A stretch of DNA of 60,217 nt from contig JADFJB010000010.1 of assembly GCA_022566355.1 (NCBI GenBank), positions 1-60,217 of the forward strand, given 5' to 3'. The notes under the pieces were generated by a model. That model saw nothing but the letters and a program-made list of their open reading frames with translations, did not search any database and was not told the origin of the DNA. Within the stretch, counting starts at the first letter, position 1, and every line of letters starts with the position of its first letter. The position numbers and the translations under genes were made by a program. Positions 50,096 to 58,782 of this stretch are shown here, one piece after another. The stretch is from a candidate division KSB1 bacterium (GTDB taxonomy: Bacteria; Zhuqueibacterota; JdFR-76; DREG01).

Positions 50096-53000
50096 TTAAT
50101 GGAGAACAATTACTTTTTGAGATTTTATGTAGGATTCACTTTTAACTTCCAAAAAATATATACCAGCTGGAAGTAACTTTCCCGAATCGTCTATGTTACT
50201 CCAAGTTAACTTCTTTTGTCCGGAATTTATTTCTCCGGAAAAGATTTCACGAACTCTTTGTCCTAACAGATTATATATTGTAACAGATAGGATAGTAGGC
50301 TTTGGAATCTCAAGTTGAATGACTGCACTTTCTCGAACCGGATTTGGAAATATTGGCCACATGTGAAATTTATTCGGTGGACTGAAATTAACAATCGATT
50401 CCTCGGAAATTTCGGTGATATAATCATCCTGTATAATTCGCACATCATCAATAAACCATCCAGGCAATAGAGTCGTCGTTTGATCATCTGAGAAAAAACG
50501 GAATCTCAGGCGGCATTCAGGTTCTCCCACAAATGGCAGCAAATCGATATTTACTTGCTGCCATTGTGCTTGCAAACCGCTTAGTGGCCCTGCTATAATT
50601 TGCCACTCACCCTCTCCTACTTTCATTTCAACGAATCCCGCATCTCCCGCTTCAATTGAATACTTTGAATTAAATAACAGTCTTGCTTGATTGAGACCGC
50701 CAAAATCGAGGCTATCCCTGGATTGTATTACAGTATTTAGATTCTGGGAGTAGTTTTGGCCTGGTGAAGGTGAAAGTGCATACTTTCCTGAAAAAACTTC
50801 CGATTGATCCAAGCCCCAATTTTCCGAACTTAAAGTCCATTGTTCTAGACCTGATTCAAAATCATCCAGTCCAATGATAAAATTAACCGTATCCAGTCTT
50901 GTCTGGTTGGCAGGATCTGCCTTATCTTTTGCGGTTATCCAATATTTTATTGAATCGCCATATAAGAAGCTGCCTGGTATTTCACCCATAAAATGGTTGT
51001 TTTCCCGGTCGAACCTGAGTTGAATAGAATCAACCGGCATCGATGATTTACGATAGTAAATAAAGAGATTTGCAGAATCTAATCCGGCATTATCTGAAAT
51101 CGATGCAGTGATTGAGAAGGATGCCATATTTGCTAAACTGTTATTCAATTCTTCTGCATAAATAACAGGCGGTATCGTATCCCTTCCAACGTAAAAAATG
51201 AATGGTCGGTGTTGTCCTGCGATGGGAAAAAACCATCTGGAATTAGGGTCGATCAATTCAAAATAATATTGAAATAATCCTTCTTTGTTTTGTAAGTCAA
51301 ATGCGCCAGTGAACGTTTTGTTTTGTTCTGTCAGTTGCACGGATTGAAATAGAGTATCATCCGGCAACTTGAACAACAAGTTGATTTCGTCAGGTAGGTC
51401 ACCAGGTGCCTGGTAATCCGCTAATATTGGAATTGAAGCGGCTGCTGTTGTTTGATCAATAACTGGCTCATGTTTCAAAGGATGTAGAAAGTTCAATACT
51501 CGTTCAAAGACTTCAAAGCGTATATTTTCAATATCATCGGGGTTTGTATTAATTTTCGCGTTGATTGCTTCCAAGCCAAAGCCAAAGTACACTAATCGAT
51601 AAATTCCATCAAAGAGTAAGCCACCAACTCCGGAATTGTTTTCATATTTCCAAACAACTGAAGCGGAATCCGTTGGCTGGAAAACATCAGGGAATTGCTC
51701 GCTCTTTGATCTTCCCGGTTGATATATGGAAAACTGAAGATTATCACCAATTTTATCAAAAGGAATTCCACGTAACTGAGAATCACCTGCATCATCAGAA
51801 GTATATTGTGCCTGAATAATATTTTCATAAAAATCCCGGGCATCATCTGTCGCATTGATACTAGCCGGATCAGAAAGATCCCAGCCAATATCCTGGCCAC
51901 TGAGAAATAAATTTCCTCCCAGTTCCAAATACTCGCTGATCGCTGCTCTATCTAGCGGATTTAGACTAGGGAAAGCCCATTCGCATAACCAGATAACCAT
52001 CGGAAATTGTTTTAGATATTCACCTGACGGCTCACCCAATTGTTTATGGTTCCAGCTTACAAAAGGTACTTTGAACACTTCAAGAGGCTTGGTATAGAAT
52101 CTTTCAACGTTATTATTGCCATCATCATCGTCAACTATCAGTATGGGTGCTTTGCCTATTTGAAATACTAGTGATTCGGTTTCAGCAAGCACATTGTCAC
52201 CTGCAAAACTTAATAATAACTGAACCACTCCGGATTTAATTTCTGAAGAAGCGTGGAGCTTAAAAGATTTAGATAATTCAATTTCAGTATCGGGTAAAAC
52301 ATTAATTTGTAAATTGCCATTTTCAATTGTGACAATACTATTTTGATCTGTAGTAAGACTAATCTCCATTGCAGGACTACTGCCAAGGGATACATTAGAC
52401 AGTAACGGTTTTAAAAAAAAGGTTTCACCCGGTTCTATAACCTGGTTGTCATTGCCCAATAAAGAATCACTCAAAGAAAAGCTGTGAAAGACAATTTTTA
52501 CTGGTGGTTGCTGCAATTCTGTTACGGTTAATACATTCGCTACATTCAACCGGCCGCTTCCTAATTTATTGGCATAAGTTAGTTGACTTTCAATGAGCTC
52601 AGCGCTAAATACAATTTGTTTTTCCATTTCTTCAATAGTTAATTGTGGATGCAATGATTTTAACAGAGCAGCAGCTCCGGCTACCATTGGAGAAGACATT
52701 GAACTACCATTAATTTTGCCATATTGGTTTTCAGGAAAAAGAGATAATATGGATGATCCCGGTGCGGAAAGGTCCACAGATTTGCCGTAAGTTGCAAGAA
52801 GCGCTTTCGAATCACTGCCGTCAACCCAGGCAACACTTATCACATGATGATAACTCGCAGGGTAAAAGTATGCTTCTTCATTTTTATTTCCCGCAGAAGC
52901 CACTACAATTACACCTTCCTGGTAAGCAAGATTCATGACCTCTTGTGCTGCACGATTTTCATTACCTACTCCTCCCCAACTCAAATTGATTACATGTGCT

Positions 53001-53926
53001 CCTTGAGCAATCGCATAGGTAATCCCGCGTAATGCTTGCACTAAAGGAATAACTCGAGGTTCATTATCTTTGGCTACTTTAATTGGCAATATTTTACTTT
53101 TCCATGAAATTCCGGATACACCTATTTCATTATTTCCAACAGCAGCTGCAATTCCTGCAACATGTGTCCCATGCTTGTAACCGTTTAGTTTGTTGGTATT
53201 GTAACCCGGATCAGAATCATCCTCAACAAAATCATAGCCTGAAATGTCATCTACCAAACCATTGCCGTCGTCATCAACCCCAATAAGTCCATTTTTCTCA
53301 ATTAGATTAATATAATAATTATCAATCAAATCTATATGACTCATATCAAATCCATTATCAACAATCGCGATAATAACTGTCGAATCTCCTCTTTCAATAT
53401 CCCAGGCTTCCGGAGATGATATTTGAGGATGATGATTTTGATTCGGATATTCTACATCATTGGGTACCAGTTGAATGAAATAATTAATTGCAGCTTCAAC
53501 AGATCGAATTTCCTGAACTTTGCTTAAAAGAAATTGAACATACTCAAAAGAAAATTCCTCATTGTAAAAAATGACCAAAAATCTTTTCAAAGACTCCGAG
53601 TTTTTCAAGCCATCTAGCAATTTATAATTAATCATAGGTTCTATCGAAAGAAGACCCATTTTATCTGATACTGCAATAAATGAAGGATTAACTTGCAATT
53701 GACTGATTACTTCCGCAGCAGTCCTCTTCCCCAACCATGCAGCCCCATTTTCTAATTCAATAATTACCTGTCCAGGTATATGGCCTGAATTCAAATGATC
53801 CTTTTGCTTAAAGGTTCTGGAATCTTTTTTATCCAATCCTATCACAATTGAAACGATTTGCAAAATTAAAATGAATAAGAAAATAGTCAGGAAAGATTTA
53901 TTCAAAATAAAACGAACACAACTCAC
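50096..53926 (-). CDS. Secreted subtilisin-like (S8) protease with type IX sorting domain
   Basis: 1276 residues, GTG start. Signal peptide/anchor (about 10-30), a propeptide-like part, then the subtilase domain (about 165-475) with catalytic Asp in IAIVDNGFDMSH, His in YKHGTHVAGIAA, oxyanion Asn in ASAGNKNEEAY and Ser in NGSSMSSPMVAG. Beta-rich repeats follow (C-terminal-to-protease Ig-like and concanavalin-like modules, with a jelly-roll region at about 1070-1180). The final 80 residues match a type IX (Por) sorting domain with FlgD-like pattern (FPNPVRES, LSVTIYNLLGQRVREIFSG, LPAGIYFLEVKS). The protein is probably carried across the outer membrane by T9SS. A consensus promoter is visible upstream. 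Confidence 0.9.
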   Translation of the reverse strand: MSCVRFILNKSFLTIFLFILILQIVSIVIGLDKKDSRTFKQKDHLNSGHIPGQVIIELENGAAWLGKRTAAEVISQLQVNPSFIAVSDKMGLLSIEPMINYKLLDGLKNSESLKRFLVIFYNEEFSFEYVQFLLSKVQEIRSVEAAINYFIQLVPNDVEYPNQNHHPQISSPEAWDIERGDSTVIIAIVDNGFDMSHIDLIDNYYINLIEKNGLIGVDDDGNGLVDDISGYDFVEDDSDPGYNTNKLNGYKHGTHVAGIAAAVGNNEIGVSGISWKSKILPIKVAKDNEPRVIPLVQALRGITYAIAQGAHVINLSWGGVGNENRAAQEVMNLAYQEGVIVVASAGNKNEEAYFYPASYHHVISVAWVDGSDSKALLATYGKSVDLSAPGSSILSLFPENQYGKINGSSMSSPMVAGAAALLKSLHPQLTIEEMEKQIVFSAELIESQLTYANKLGSGRLNVANVLTVTELQQPPVKIVFHSFSLSDSLLGNDNQVIEPGETFFLKPLLSNVSLGSSPAMEISLTTDQNSIVTIENGNLQINVLPDTEIELSKSFKLHASSEIKSGVVQLLLSFAGDNVLAETESLVFQIGKAPILIVDDDDGNNNVERFYTKPLEVFKVPFVSWNHKQLGEPSGEYLKQFPMVIWLCEWAFPSLNPLDRAAISEYLELGGNLFLSGQDIGWDLSDPASINATDDARDFYENIIQAQYTSDDAGDSQLRGIPFDKIGDNLQFSIYQPGRSKSEQFPDVFQPTDSASVVWKYENNSGVGGLLFDGIYRLVYFGFGLEAINAKINTNPDDIENIRFEVFERVLNFLHPLKHEPVIDQTTAAASIPILADYQAPGDLPDEINLLFKLPDDTLFQSVQLTEQNKTFTGAFDLQNKEGLFQYYFELIDPNSRWFFPIAGQHRPFIFYVGRDTIPPVIYAEELNNSLANMASFSITASISDNAGLDSANLFIYYRKSSMPVDSIQLRFDRENNHFMGEIPGSFLYGDSIKYWITAKDKADPANQTRLDTVNFIIGLDDFESGLEQWTLSSENWGLDQSEVFSGKYALSPSPGQNYSQNLNTVIQSRDSLDFGGLNQARLLFNSKYSIEAGDAGFVEMKVGEGEWQIIAGPLSGLQAQWQQVNIDLLPFVGEPECRLRFRFFSDDQTTTLLPGWFIDDVRIIQDDYITEISEESIVNFSPPNKFHMWPIFPNPVRESAVIQLEIPKPTILSVTIYNLLGQRVREIFSGEINSGQKKLTWSNIDDSGKLLPAGIYFLEVKSESYIKSQKVIVLH

Positions 53927-54280: not shown

Positions 54281-54484
54281 ATGAAAAGGATAGTTCTGTT
54301 GGGGAAAGATAAAAACTTTGGACAACGATTAAAAGCAAAGATTAGAAAGAAAGGTTATTCGGTAAAGCAAATAGAGAATTTAGAAAAATTAAACAACTTA
54401 TTAAAAACGGTCAGTCCCGAGTATGTCGTTTGTTCGGGCAAAATCAAGATAGACTCGGAGGGGAATTATTATTTAGAACTTTAA
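54281..54484 (+). CDS. Small receiver-like protein, 67 residues
   Basis: A 67-residue frame with AGGTGG 7 nt before the ATG, closed by a terminator. The sequence RIVLLGKDKNFGQRLKAKIR and KKGYSVKQIENLEKLNNLLK matches the first two beta-alpha units of a receiver or FleQ-like fold. It ends near where the phospho-acceptor strand would be (PEYVVCSGKIKI). The acidic pocket of real response regulators is absent. It is either a truncated receiver or a mini-protein of that fold. Confidence 0.6.
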   Translation: MKRIVLLGKDKNFGQRLKAKIRKKGYSVKQIENLEKLNNLLKTVSPEYVVCSGKIKIDSEGNYYLEL

Positions 54485-54590: not shown

Positions 54591-55643
54591 TCAGCAATCT
54601 ACTAAACACTGCTCCGCTACACTTCGATCTATGCTTTTTAATTTTTGTATTTTCCCTATTGCAGAAGGTAGATATAGATTATTCAACATTGTTGGGGTAA
54701 AACATTGGAGCAGTAAATCTCTTGCTTTATCCCACTCCTCCTGTTTCACATGATATGCTGCAAGAAGCCTCTCAATCAAAAATAAGACTCGGCTGGATTC
54801 TTCCGAATTGTCAAGATTACATTGTTCCGCCAATTTAATTCGCCAACGTAATTCTAAAAAAATCATCGAGGCAATTTCTCTTGGTTTTAAGCGATACTTG
54901 CCTTCTGATTTTATTATATTGATTGCTCGATTACCGAAATCTTCCAATAAATAATGGGCTTGATTACCCTGATTATAAATTGCAATCCGGGTCTTTGCAT
55001 TATGTTCCAGGCTATCGATCAGTAATTCTTCATTTTCGAATCCAATTTTTTGCCAAGATTCTTCATATTCCGCGAATTTTTCAGAACTGGCTAGCAAAAG
55101 ATTTCTTACAAAACTTGCATGTAATAGGAATATTTCGTTACGATCTGTATTCTGCAAACATTGAAGGTCCAATATTGCCATTTGGGGCCATGTAAAAACT
55201 GAGATTACCGAAGGTCTTTTTTTCCAGTTTAAGAAGGCACTATTTTTTACCCCGCATTCACTCATTGCCCATAATGTTGTGGGCATATTCACGATAACTG
55301 GTGGATGTGTGAGAAGTCGGCAAGCAAAGGAAACCAAATTCAGGAGCAATTCATCACCAACAACAATAAGTGTAAAACTCGACTCTATTTGTTTCCATGG
55401 GATGCCTGCGTAAAATTGCTCAATTGTTTCTAGTTCACTTAAATTGATATTTTTGGGAAGGATAATCTCATCAAATGTTTCATATCCAGGAATAAATTGA
55501 GCGCTAACTCCTTCCTGTAATACAATGGCTATTTTGTCTGGAAAACGGTAAAGGTTTAATAATTCACTAAAGCGCTCAAGAACATCATTGCCAATAAATA
55601 ATGGGAACGATGCTCCTTCGAAATTAACTTTTATCGTTTTCAT
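54591..55643 (-). CDS. Degenerate 3-dehydroquinate synthase-like protein
   Basis: 350 residues that follow the AroB fold along their length: N-terminal strand KVNFEGASFPLFIGNDVL, nucleotide-binding region near 90-100, and NMPTTLWAMSECGVKNSAFL (about 119-138), the counterpart of the PTTLLA-x-x-D-x-S-x-GGK motif. But the GGG of the NAD loop reads VVGDELL, the substrate Lys region has no GGK, and the FGHTxGHAIE zinc motif has become LEDFGNRAINII, so both His ligands are gone. It is unlikely to make dehydroquinate. The last 70 residues are helical and unlike AroB. It is probably a pseudoenzyme or a new function. The aroB context (shikimate genes) is absent. Confidence 0.7.
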   Translation of the reverse strand: MKTIKVNFEGASFPLFIGNDVLERFSELLNLYRFPDKIAIVLQEGVSAQFIPGYETFDEIILPKNINLSELETIEQFYAGIPWKQIESSFTLIVVGDELLLNLVSFACRLLTHPPVIVNMPTTLWAMSECGVKNSAFLNWKKRPSVISVFTWPQMAILDLQCLQNTDRNEIFLLHASFVRNLLLASSEKFAEYEESWQKIGFENEELLIDSLEHNAKTRIAIYNQGNQAHYLLEDFGNRAINIIKSEGKYRLKPREIASMIFLELRWRIKLAEQCNLDNSEESSRVLFLIERLLAAYHVKQEEWDKARDLLLQCFTPTMLNNLYLPSAIGKIQKLKSIDRSVAEQCLVDC

Positions 55644-55683: not shown

Positions 55684-57096
55684 TTAAGCTTCAATATTTT
55701 CCGGATCGGTTTTCACCTTTTGAGATTTGCTTTCTTGTTTCTTTTGATTGAGTTTCATTCTAGGTTTTTTCTTAAGCGCTTTGGATTTCTCTCTGCTTTG
55801 CAATTCGGTCTTTAAAGCGTTCATATGATTTTGAGCTATCTCACGGTGTTTATTCGAAGTCAATGGTACTATTTCCAGAAAGTTGCGATAAGATTCAATT
55901 GCAAGGTCGTACTTTTTCAAAGTTTCATAGCTTAGAGCCCGGTTAAGCCAGGCTTCTTGATAATCCGGGTTGATTGATATGGCATGACTGTAACTCTTTA
56001 AAGCATATTTTATTTTACCTAATTTAGATTGTGCGATTCCTAAGTTATTCCAAGCTTCCTGATAACCCGGGTTGATTTTTAAACAACGGTGGTATGACTC
56101 AACAGCTTCCTCATTCCAATCGAGTCTATTTAAAGTATTTGCTAAATAATAATGACCCATAGCAAATTTCTTATCTATATCCAAGGTTTTGCGAAAACAA
56201 TCAGCTGCCTCTTCGAAATGTTCATTCATGGTCAGGGCAATTCCTTTTTCATACCAGGCATTCAAATGTTCCGGATCTAGTTTAATGGCATTATCATAAC
56301 TTTCGATTGACGGATTTATCTTACCCAATTTTCTTAAAGCTGTTCCATGGTATGTATACGTCTCTGATCTATTGGAATCGATAGATAGAGCTTCTTCAAA
56401 ACTTTGAAGTGCATTGGTAAATTCATTCAGTGACATATAAGCCAAACCCCGGTTGAACCATAATTCATATTTATTTGAATTAAGCCTAGTGGCTTCTTCA
56501 GTGCATTTTATTACTTCGTAAAAATCACCTTTTTCGAAACAAATTCCACTCTTATTTAGCCAAGAAGTGCTTGTGGCAACCCATCTGTTAGATAGATCAT
56601 ACTTTTCAATAGCATCATCATAATCAGCATCATTAAAGGCCTGATTCGCCAACTTCCACATTTGCAACGCTTGTAGTCTCTCGGTCATTTTGACTTCACC
56701 GGAAATTTCCAATTCCGAATTAAAAATCTCAGAAGAGAATATCATTTTATAAGGTCTTCCCTCCATTACCTTCTGCCATGTTTCAGGCATCTCAAATTTG
56801 TTTTTATTATACTTAACAATTCTTAAAATGAGACTGATGAGGTCAAGTAAAAGTACTAAAGAAATAACGACTGCCAGAAAAATTAATACGATTTGAAGAT
56901 TTTGAGCTTGCTCTATGGGATATTCCATGTTCAAAATAAATGAGCCTGAAAACTCCAAAAGTATAGCTAAGCTGGCCGAAGCAACTCCCAGGATGTTAAT
57001 CAATGTCAGATATAAAGATCGTCCCCGAATCGAAATTATTGAAAAAACCAGGAAAAATAGAACAGCAAATAGGTTGGATACAATATACATAATCAT
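55684..57096 (-). CDS. Membrane-anchored TPR-repeat protein
   Basis: The ATG at 57096 overlaps the stop of the upstream DNA-glycosylase gene as ATGA. An upstream start would overlap it by 73 nt. 470 residues. Three hydrophobic segments lie in the first 100 residues (starting MIMYIVSNLFAVLFFLVFSI). About nine TPR repeats follow (residues 160-420; for example AWYEKGIALTMNEHFEEAAD, HYYLANTLNRLDWNEEAVES, AWNNLGIAQSKLGKIKYALK). The tail is Lys/Arg-rich. It is probably an inner-membrane scaffold that binds partners on the cytosolic side. No enzymatic domain is visible. Confidence 0.82.
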   Translation of the reverse strand: MIMYIVSNLFAVLFFLVFSIISIRGRSLYLTLINILGVASASLAILLEFSGSFILNMEYPIEQAQNLQIVLIFLAVVISLVLLLDLISLILRIVKYNKNKFEMPETWQKVMEGRPYKMIFSSEIFNSELEISGEVKMTERLQALQMWKLANQAFNDADYDDAIEKYDLSNRWVATSTSWLNKSGICFEKGDFYEVIKCTEEATRLNSNKYELWFNRGLAYMSLNEFTNALQSFEEALSIDSNRSETYTYHGTALRKLGKINPSIESYDNAIKLDPEHLNAWYEKGIALTMNEHFEEAADCFRKTLDIDKKFAMGHYYLANTLNRLDWNEEAVESYHRCLKINPGYQEAWNNLGIAQSKLGKIKYALKSYSHAISINPDYQEAWLNRALSYETLKKYDLAIESYRNFLEIVPLTSNKHREIAQNHMNALKTELQSREKSKALKKKPRMKLNQKKQESKSQKVKTDPENIEA

Positions 57097-57755
57097 AAGC
57101 TTTCCTTCATTTGAGGCAATCTTTTTTCCAGAGGGCAACCATGACATTTGGGTTGCTTTCGACAATAGTTGTGGCCGACAAAATCAATGAGTGCATGATA
57201 CTCATTAAAGAGTTGTGTATTTCTCGGCAATCGTTTCATAAAAAGATCTTGGATTTCCTGATAGGTTGCTTTTTCGTTTATCCACTTATGTCGTTGCAGT
57301 ATTCTTTTTGTATAAGTATCTACAACAAAAATTGGTTTTCCTAAGGCATATAAAAGAATCGCATCGGCTGTTTCCGGGCCAATGCCATGAATTCCCAACA
57401 GTTCACTGCGCAGGGAGGAAGTTCTTTCCTCTCTCATTTTATTTATTGACCCATCGTATTGTTCATAAAAATACTTTACAAATTCTTTTATTTTTTTTGC
57501 TTTTTGATTGTAATAACCCGAAGGACGGATAACATCAGCTAATTTCTCTTCACTAATTTTATAAATTGCTTTCGGAGAAAGAAGATTTTGTTTTTTAAGA
57601 TTCATTATAGCTTTTTCGACATTCTTCCATGAAGTATTCTGCGTTAATATTGCTCCAATAATTACTTCAAATGGCGTATCTGCCGGCCACCAATTTCGAG
57701 GACCAACCTGTATTAAAAGATCATCATAAACATCCATTATTTCTTTGAATTCCAT
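57093..57755 (-). CDS. Endonuclease III-related DNA glycosylase (COG2231/MagIII-like)
   Basis: 220 residues of the helix-hairpin-helix-GPD family. The HhH motif is LLGIHGIGPETADAILLYA (about 118-136) and the catalytic Asp is in IFVVDTYTKRIL (about 141-152). In EndoIII the residue before TA is Lys (G-x-G-R-K-T-A); here it is Glu (GPETAD), so it should be a monofunctional glycosylase without lyase activity, like the COG2231/MagIII 3-methyladenine type. The C-terminal cysteines (NYCRKQPKCHGCPL) number three and not four, so the [4Fe-4S] cluster may be incomplete. It is translationally coupled to the TPR gene. Confidence 0.82.
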   Translation of the reverse strand: MEFKEIMDVYDDLLIQVGPRNWWPADTPFEVIIGAILTQNTSWKNVEKAIMNLKKQNLLSPKAIYKISEEKLADVIRPSGYYNQKAKKIKEFVKYFYEQYDGSINKMREERTSSLRSELLGIHGIGPETADAILLYALGKPIFVVDTYTKRILQRHKWINEKATYQEIQDLFMKRLPRNTQLFNEYHALIDFVGHNYCRKQPKCHGCPLEKRLPQMKESL

Positions 57756-57777: not shown

Positions 57778-58782
57778 CTAAGACACTGTCTTCGGATTAA
57801 CAAAAGCTTCTCGTTCCGGGAATAAACCAAAGATACCCCCGGTGTGAATAAATAGTATATTCGTTTCTTTTTGGAATTTTCCTGTTTTGATCTGATCGAT
57901 TAAACCAAACATGGCTTTGCCGGTATAAACCGGATCAAGCAATATACCTTCCAGTTTGGCCAATAACCGAATAACATCAATCTCTTCAGGTCTGCTGCGT
58001 GCATAGCCTTTCCCAACATAACCGTCGATGATCATGATGTCTTCAGGCAAAGATAGCGGGTATGAAAACCTCTCTCCAAACGATTTCAGGAGTTCAGATA
58101 TCTTTTGTTGAAAGTACTTTTCATCATCACACACATTAATTCCGTAAACTGGAATGTCTAATTGATGATATTGAAGTCCAAGAAGTAAACCGGCTTGTGT
58201 GCCACCGGAACCAACGGCTATGACAATAGCATCCATTTCCGGCAAATTTTCGTTTAATAATTGATCGCGAATTTCACTCGCAGCATTGAAATATCCCCAA
58301 CATCCGATTGCATTACTGGCTCCCTCCGGAATCACATATGGTCTATGTCCTTTTTGCCGTAAATCATCAGCCAACTCCTGCATAATTTCATCACGCTTTA
58401 AATATTGCTCGGGTGTAATGAATTTTATTTCAGCGTCAAGTATTATATCAAATAGCAGGTTTCCATCCGGAATTTTTTCCGGATTTCCTCTTAAAACAAG
58501 ATAAGGCTTCAAACCCAATTGGCGTGCAGCTAAGGCAGTGGCCCTGGCATGATTTGAAGTTGTTCCACCGGTAGTAATCAAAATATCACTCTTTTTCTGA
58601 ACGGCCTCCCCAATACTGTATTCTAATTTGCGCACTTTATTACCACTCAAGCCGAATCCGGTTAAATCATCCCTCTTGATGTAGATTGATGGTCCCTTTA
58701 AGTATTTACTAAGCCTAGATAATTTTTGGATTGGGGTAGGTGTTCGTGCCAGCCGAACACGATATGGGTTTTCAATTTGCAT
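57778..58782 (-). CDS. D-cysteine desulfhydrase/ACC deaminase-like PLP enzyme
   Basis: 334 residues of the fold II PLP family. PLP lysine in GLSGNKVRKLE (about 43-53), TTGGTTSNHARATALAAR (about 70-87), and the glycine-rich loop AVGSGGTQAGLLLG (about 190-203). The best match is the DcyD/ACC deaminase branch, which breaks D-cysteine (pyruvate, ammonia, sulfide) or 1-aminocyclopropane-1-carboxylate. Which one cannot be settled from the visible residues. It lies divergent to the succinate dehydrogenase operon. Confidence 0.85.
   Translation of the reverse strand: MQIENPYRVRLARTPTPIQKLSRLSKYLKGPSIYIKRDDLTGFGLSGNKVRKLEYSIGEAVQKKSDILITTGGTTSNHARATALAARQLGLKPYLVLRGNPEKIPDGNLLFDIILDAEIKFITPEQYLKRDEIMQELADDLRQKGHRPYVIPEGASNAIGCWGYFNAASEIRDQLLNENLPEMDAIVIAVGSGGTQAGLLLGLQYHQLDIPVYGINVCDDEKYFQQKISELLKSFGERFSYPLSLPEDIMIIDGYVGKGYARSRPEEIDVIRLLAKLEGILLDPVYTGKAMFGLIDQIKTGKFQKETNILFIHTGGIFGLFPEREAFVNPKTVS

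Follow-up and report, generated by a model that had tools for sequence, protein, structure and literature searches.

Dehydroquinate synthase (AroB) requires a metal and NAD (PMC7144000). In the open-licence PMC literature we found neither a dehydroquinate-synthase pseudoenzyme nor a report of xenologous displacement of aroB. The one paper mentioning both dehydroquinate synthase and a pseudoenzyme applies the latter term to a TrpC-TrpF fusion. The protein described here, P0001, is encoded in a 60,217-nucleotide stretch of DNA from a candidate division KSB1 bacterium (GCA_022566355.1, contig JADFJB010000010.1), which is referred to as the window.

P0001 lies at positions 54591..55643 of the window, exactly where the initial annotation had placed it, and is encoded on the minus strand; the plus strand of the same interval is full of stops. 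The normal start and the kept length that had been noted were both found: the frame begins with ATG, spans 350 codons and is open throughout. Its product of 350 aa was assigned as a dead AroB-fold protein from the open reading frame, Pfam and profile matches, the predicted fold and the residue columns. Directly upstream, across a gap of 40 bp, a TPR protein with a membrane-anchored appearance is encoded (55684..57165, minus). The TTG listed as its start is mechanical; a more plausible start is an ATG inside the frame, near 57096. Homologues of this TPR gene were found near a dead or an intact AroB throughout the phylum. Two further conserved neighbours are an Nth-like HhH-GPD glycosylase (57093..57755, minus) and an ACC-deaminase / D-cysteine-desulfhydrase-like protein (57778..58782, minus), the latter named by reading and not by family search. 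Downstream of P0001, the next frame of annotated size codes for a subtilase-like secreted protein of 1276 aa with a C-terminal sorting-like tail (50096-53926, minus). Between the two genes, a 67-aa frame on the plus strand (54281-54484) resembles the beginning of a truncated response-regulator receiver domain. That P0001 is a chance frame or a sequencing artefact was ruled out by its full-length homologues in four other genomes.

The likeness to AroB extends along the whole protein, as had been claimed. P0001 matched the Pfam DHQ_synthase family with 30.3 bits (E 3.5e-7; cut-off 24.2) and could on that basis pass for AroB in annotation; the NCBIfam aroB equivalog gave 28.5 bits and its cut-off of 305 was not reached. 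A profile built from five members of the class matched an AroB structure in the PDB (5eks) with an E value of 9e-31 over profile positions 1-354. An AlphaFold model of P0001, calculated from an alignment of ten sequences (four dead AroBs and six ordinary AroBs from IMG/VR contigs), reached a mean pLDDT of 87.3 and a pTM of 0.87. In a fold comparison, this model was superimposed over residues 1-350 on the dehydroquinate synthase 6lla_B with Z 31.1, rmsd 3.0 and 331 aligned residues. A control model based on the four dead sequences alone had a pLDDT of 66.7 and a pTM of 0.65, with residues 1-34 and 130-163 below 50. Dehydroquinate synthase was still its first match (E 1.5e-11), with no ordinary AroB in the alignment. 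The relationship between P0001 and AroB is far above chance.

The catalytic and cofactor residues are largely replaced. The PTTLWA-x-S motif is present at residues 121-128, and the alterations reported by the initial annotation were all confirmed: GGG reads GDE (residues 96-98), within an NAD loop in which GGGxxxD has become GDELLLN, GGK reads KNS (133-135) and FGHxxGH reads FGNxxIN (236-242). In the columns that we take to be the metal ligands of AroB (one Glu and two His), P0001 has S177, N238 and, at the His of HGE, Ile; the zinc Glu and the HGE His are thus gone. Comparison of 17 catalytic/cofactor columns revealed a single deviating cell among 1139 in ordinary AroBs (n=67) and none in fused AroK-AroB enzymes (n=4). 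The dead AroBs of the class kept 1/17 (P0001, genome G000), 1/17 (G002), 3/17 (G003), 5/17 (G005) and 3/17 (G006) of these columns. The count for G005 varies with the alignment around GGK, where our two alignments differ; otherwise the second alignment of AroB-like frames gave the same picture of residue losses. With zinc, NAD-loop and substrate residues lost, P0001 is probably inactive, as had been proposed.

The column count was made on 82 AroB-like frames, from which four were omitted beforehand: L155, which has a gap over PTT to GGK, L156, a second, cyclase-like copy, and L157 and L158, remote superfamily members. The frames counted comprised 67 ordinary AroBs (65 from within the phylum and two, L023 and L026, from outside it), four fused and seven dead ones. 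Matches at contig edges in G041 and G080, and weak matches in G029:C287, G032:C18, G039:C56, G058:C219 (the weak one there) and G063:C143 stand outside the count. The column 'IKAE', misplaced by one residue, was excluded from the 17. In the omitted frame of G068 (L155:8049-9011) the remaining catalytic residues are present, and the gap reflects an internal deletion or an assembly error. The second AroB-like protein of G016 (L156:1091-2185) has intact catalytic residues, carries Ala where the VWxD motif otherwise has an invariant Asp and is perhaps a sugar phosphate cyclase.

The class to which the window belongs (identical with the order in the genome collection used) is represented by seven genomes. 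A dead AroB was found in five of them, which fall into three families. In the other two the contigs end at the relevant spot, at the end of the TPR gene in G004 (82% complete; contig G004:C399) and inside the flippase in G001 (77% complete; contig G001:C426), so that every readable copy of the locus holds the dead AroB (5/5). A peptide-pattern search of genome contigs with P0001 itself returned no relative. With a neighbouring flippase as query, 57 loci were obtained. A dead AroB stands beside the flippase in three of them, L077, L078 and L079, which correspond to G005, G003 and G002 (100% identity of the genes compared). In the remaining 54 no AroB-like match occurred in the flank examined, many flanks being short and L105 starting inside the flippase. 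The class relatives share 19-28% identity with P0001, and 22 positions are invariant among the five, including W267-R268, of which the Arg is rare in ordinary AroBs. Neither a stop nor a frameshift was detected in the gene in any of the five genomes. As all five class genomes in which the spot is assembled carry the dead AroB, P0001 is not a copy that began to decay recently. Other families of the phylum (f10, f12 and f16) have intact motifs at this locus, which no class member has; the loss is therefore derived, which by itself does not show random decay.

Gene order indicates where P0001 comes from. Outside the class, intact AroB adjoins the TPR gene and/or an MDR-type dehydrogenase gene in 12 of 20 loci fetched, all 12 in f10, f12 and f16. 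Since intact AroB adjoins the same TPR/MDR genes elsewhere in the phylum, P0001 sits at the native aroB position. Within the class, G003 shows the order Nth-like, TPR, MDR dehydrogenase, AroK-like, dead AroB, flippase and methyltransferase, and G002 shows ACC-deaminase-like, TPR, MDR, dead AroB, flippase and methyltransferase. In G006 the series ACC-deaminase-like, Nth-like, TPR, MDR and AroK-like is followed by other genes up to the contig end; dead AroB, flippase and methyltransferase lie on a different contig, behind genes whose G005 homologues continue that series. Reading of these unjoined contigs suggests an insertion. The window has ACC-deaminase-like, Nth-like, TPR and dead AroB, with no adjoining MDR, AroK or flippase gene, and the flippase homologue of this genome is on contig C130. 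In G000, G002 and G003 the upstream TPR gene shares a contig with the dead AroB; in G005 and G006 its upstream position is deduced solely from reading across contigs. The shikimate-kinase-like genes at the old locus of G003 (L035:8855-9463) and G006 (L231:1123-1674) read GAG. Active shikimate kinases read GGG at this motif, and these two genes may also be dying or repurposed.

An intact aroB was found elsewhere in the genome of the window, in the form of a 536-aa AroK-AroB fusion that has all motifs, scores 339 bits against the aroB cut-off of 305 and, judged by its intact residues, would be active. Fusions above this cut-off are also present in G001, G002 and G005, and in G002 and G005 they share a contig stretch with aroA and aroC. 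The dead AroB lies outside this aromatic cluster in 5/5 genomes. In G003 (72% complete) aroA and aroC are present and no fused AroK-AroB was found, either beside them or elsewhere. In G006 (95% complete, about 230 contigs) we found no AroK-AroB, no aroC, no true aroA and no DAHP synthase belonging to the cluster; either the cluster was lost, leaving an aromatic auxotroph, or one contig is missing.

Phylogenetic analysis of all rows separated the seven dead AroBs of the phylum from the other sequences by one branch, with terminal branches of 2.6 to 6 changes per column in 5/7. When a single dead row was included at a time, G063, G003 and G005 joined f10 inside an f10/f12/f16 group with a group support of 99 to 100, and G069 joined f12/f16 with a support of 35 (supports as printed after rerooting). 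That P0001 arose by duplication from the fused enzyme instead of from the native aroB was not rejected by the AU test, in which a clade with the fused enzymes gave p values of 0.33 for G003 and 0.29 for G005. Such an origin nevertheless has only a slim chance: MDR is followed in G003 by AroK-like and dead AroB genes, just as it is by intact AroB elsewhere, and the single-member trees place G003, G005 and G063 in the f10/f12/f16 group. Because the AU test does not reject the alternative and the branches are very long, our argument on origin rests on gene order and not on the tree. P0001 is most likely the vertically inherited AroB, which lost its place to the fused enzyme and was kept as a non-catalytic protein. 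The initial view of a conserved inactive paralogue thus holds as to inactivity and conservation; in place of an ordinary paralogue, the protein is probably a positional descendant of the native aroB of the phylum.

The ancestral neighbourhood would have consisted of the ACC-deaminase-like, Nth-like, TPR, MDR-type dehydrogenase, AroK and AroB genes. The fused AroK-AroB of the aromatic gene cluster may then have taken over the reaction, after which the old copy would have lost its metal site, NAD loop and substrate residues, presumably in this order of events, while fold and reading frame survived. We consider it probable that P0001 is a class-wide descendant of native AroB, displaced by the fusion, now non-catalytic and likely to bind a partner.

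A second group of dead AroBs was found outside the class. G063 (f22) has an intact AroB adjoining an AroK. Next to its homologue of the TPR gene it encodes another AroB-like protein (L149:9119-10159), from which GGK, FGHxxGH and HGE are missing and in which the zinc Glu and the NAD-loop Asp are still present. In G069 (f20) a similar dead AroB, cut by the contig (L154:2-874), is followed by two genes that are also downstream in G063. In G046 and G067 (f20; L221 and L222) these genes follow the TPR gene directly, with no AroB between. Across the phylum, the gene at this site may thus be intact, dead or missing. The all-row tree groups the dead AroBs of G063 and G069 with the five class members, on long branches.

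Selection was assessed on one close pair, G005/G006. The dead AroB showed a dN of 0.44 and a dS of 1.79, the latter near saturation, so that dN/dS is at most about 0.25. The dN values of four neighbours in the same pair were 0.12 (flippase), 0.16 (methyltransferase), 0.14 (TonB-type) and 0.36 (332-aa protein), and that of the dead AroB was 1.2 to 3.7 times as high. In neutral simulations 0/20000 frames stayed free of stops at dS 1.79 and 5/20000 at 0.25. Purifying selection on the dead AroB, anticipated for the relatives, is real but weak. Columns that are invariant in ordinary AroBs had 29% pairwise identity among the five and the remaining columns 22%; the two halves of the protein had 24% and 23%. 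At a threshold of at least 95% pairwise identity in ordinary AroBs, 53 columns were obtained, of which six are invariant in the five, one of them by a fixed Lys to Arg change.

These values bear on the reading that a redundant gene is slowly on its way out and intact by chance. The fast evolution, with 19-28% identity to P0001, the unconserved pocket and the situation after the TPR gene, where AroB is missing from G046 and G067 and a dead one precedes the same following gene in G069, would fit slow decay. We regard it as decidedly unlikely in view of the full-length open frame in five genomes and three families, the scarcity of stop-free simulated frames, the dN well below dS and the 22 positions shared by the five. 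The suggestion of a new role is weakened by the former pocket, which varies nearly as much as other parts of the protein, by a dN above that of the neighbours and by the absence of the gene from the related site in G046 and G067. Since the residues of the old pocket show scarcely more conservation than other positions, the relatives are unlikely to share a new catalytic function. A new enzyme carrying out metal-independent sugar-phosphate chemistry in the old pocket could account for the positive charge held at the Lys of the IKYG motif (Arg in 6/7 dead AroBs, Gln in G069) and for the GGG kept in G005, and is highly improbable given the near-equal identity of former invariant and other columns and the mere 6/53 still fixed. 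Because the binding sites for zinc, NAD and substrate have been lost and no common pocket has taken their place, neither catalysis nor sensing of the old ligands is a likely class-wide role.

A structural or partner-binding role appears to fit the pattern better than an enzymatic one, as far as residue conservation can tell. P0001 would now most likely be a folded, non-catalytic AroB-like body that binds a partner. Candidate partners are the TPR protein and, in 4/5 genomes, also the polysaccharide flippase and the methyltransferase, which follow the dead AroB there. The idea of a link to polysaccharide export accordingly concerns the window's class only and fails in G000. AroB is a dimer, and the active fused AroK-AroB might itself be the partner that P0001 regulates or stabilises, for example in mixed dimers. 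The predicted retention of the fold, and the fact that G000, G002 and G005 have both proteins, are consistent with this; it is unlikely, as G006 keeps its dead AroB with fused enzyme, aroC and true aroA undetected, and as the gene lies apart from the aromatic cluster in all five. For the displaced, partner-binding descendant of native AroB that we favour, a tentative and rather doubtful extension is that native AroB already had a second, non-catalytic job in the TPR/envelope neighbourhood, and that only this job stayed after displacement, in the class and perhaps separately in the G063/G069 lineage.

If the favoured reading is true, nature has run an experiment in enzyme displacement at this ancestral locus: some families have the gene for a complete enzyme there, a whole class and part of another lineage have kept it as the gene for a dead protein, and others lack it. 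A hidden second function of a central metabolic enzyme would thereby become testable.

Compared with known systems, P0001 shares with AroB (TIGR01357; PF01761, PF24621) the predicted fold across the full length, the PTTL motif, the first Gly of the NAD loop, D159, L163 and an IG near the C terminus. Missing are the zinc Glu and His residues, the Asp and two Gly of the NAD loop, GGK, KN, LNFGH and DKK. The AroB-related sugar phosphate cyclases 2gru, 4p53 and 5tpr have the same fold as the P0001 model (Z 29.9, 26.8 and 26.0). These structures are titled as metal- and NAD-bound; P0001 is without the residues for both, and the two sites, intact in the cyclases, are not intact in it. Against TIGR04425, a family to which these cyclases are related, it scored 18.7 bits at a cut-off of 400. 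P0001 resembles pseudoenzymes in general, the subject of the reviews PMC10211241 and PMC11266112, in that catalytic motifs were lost and fold and reading frame were kept.
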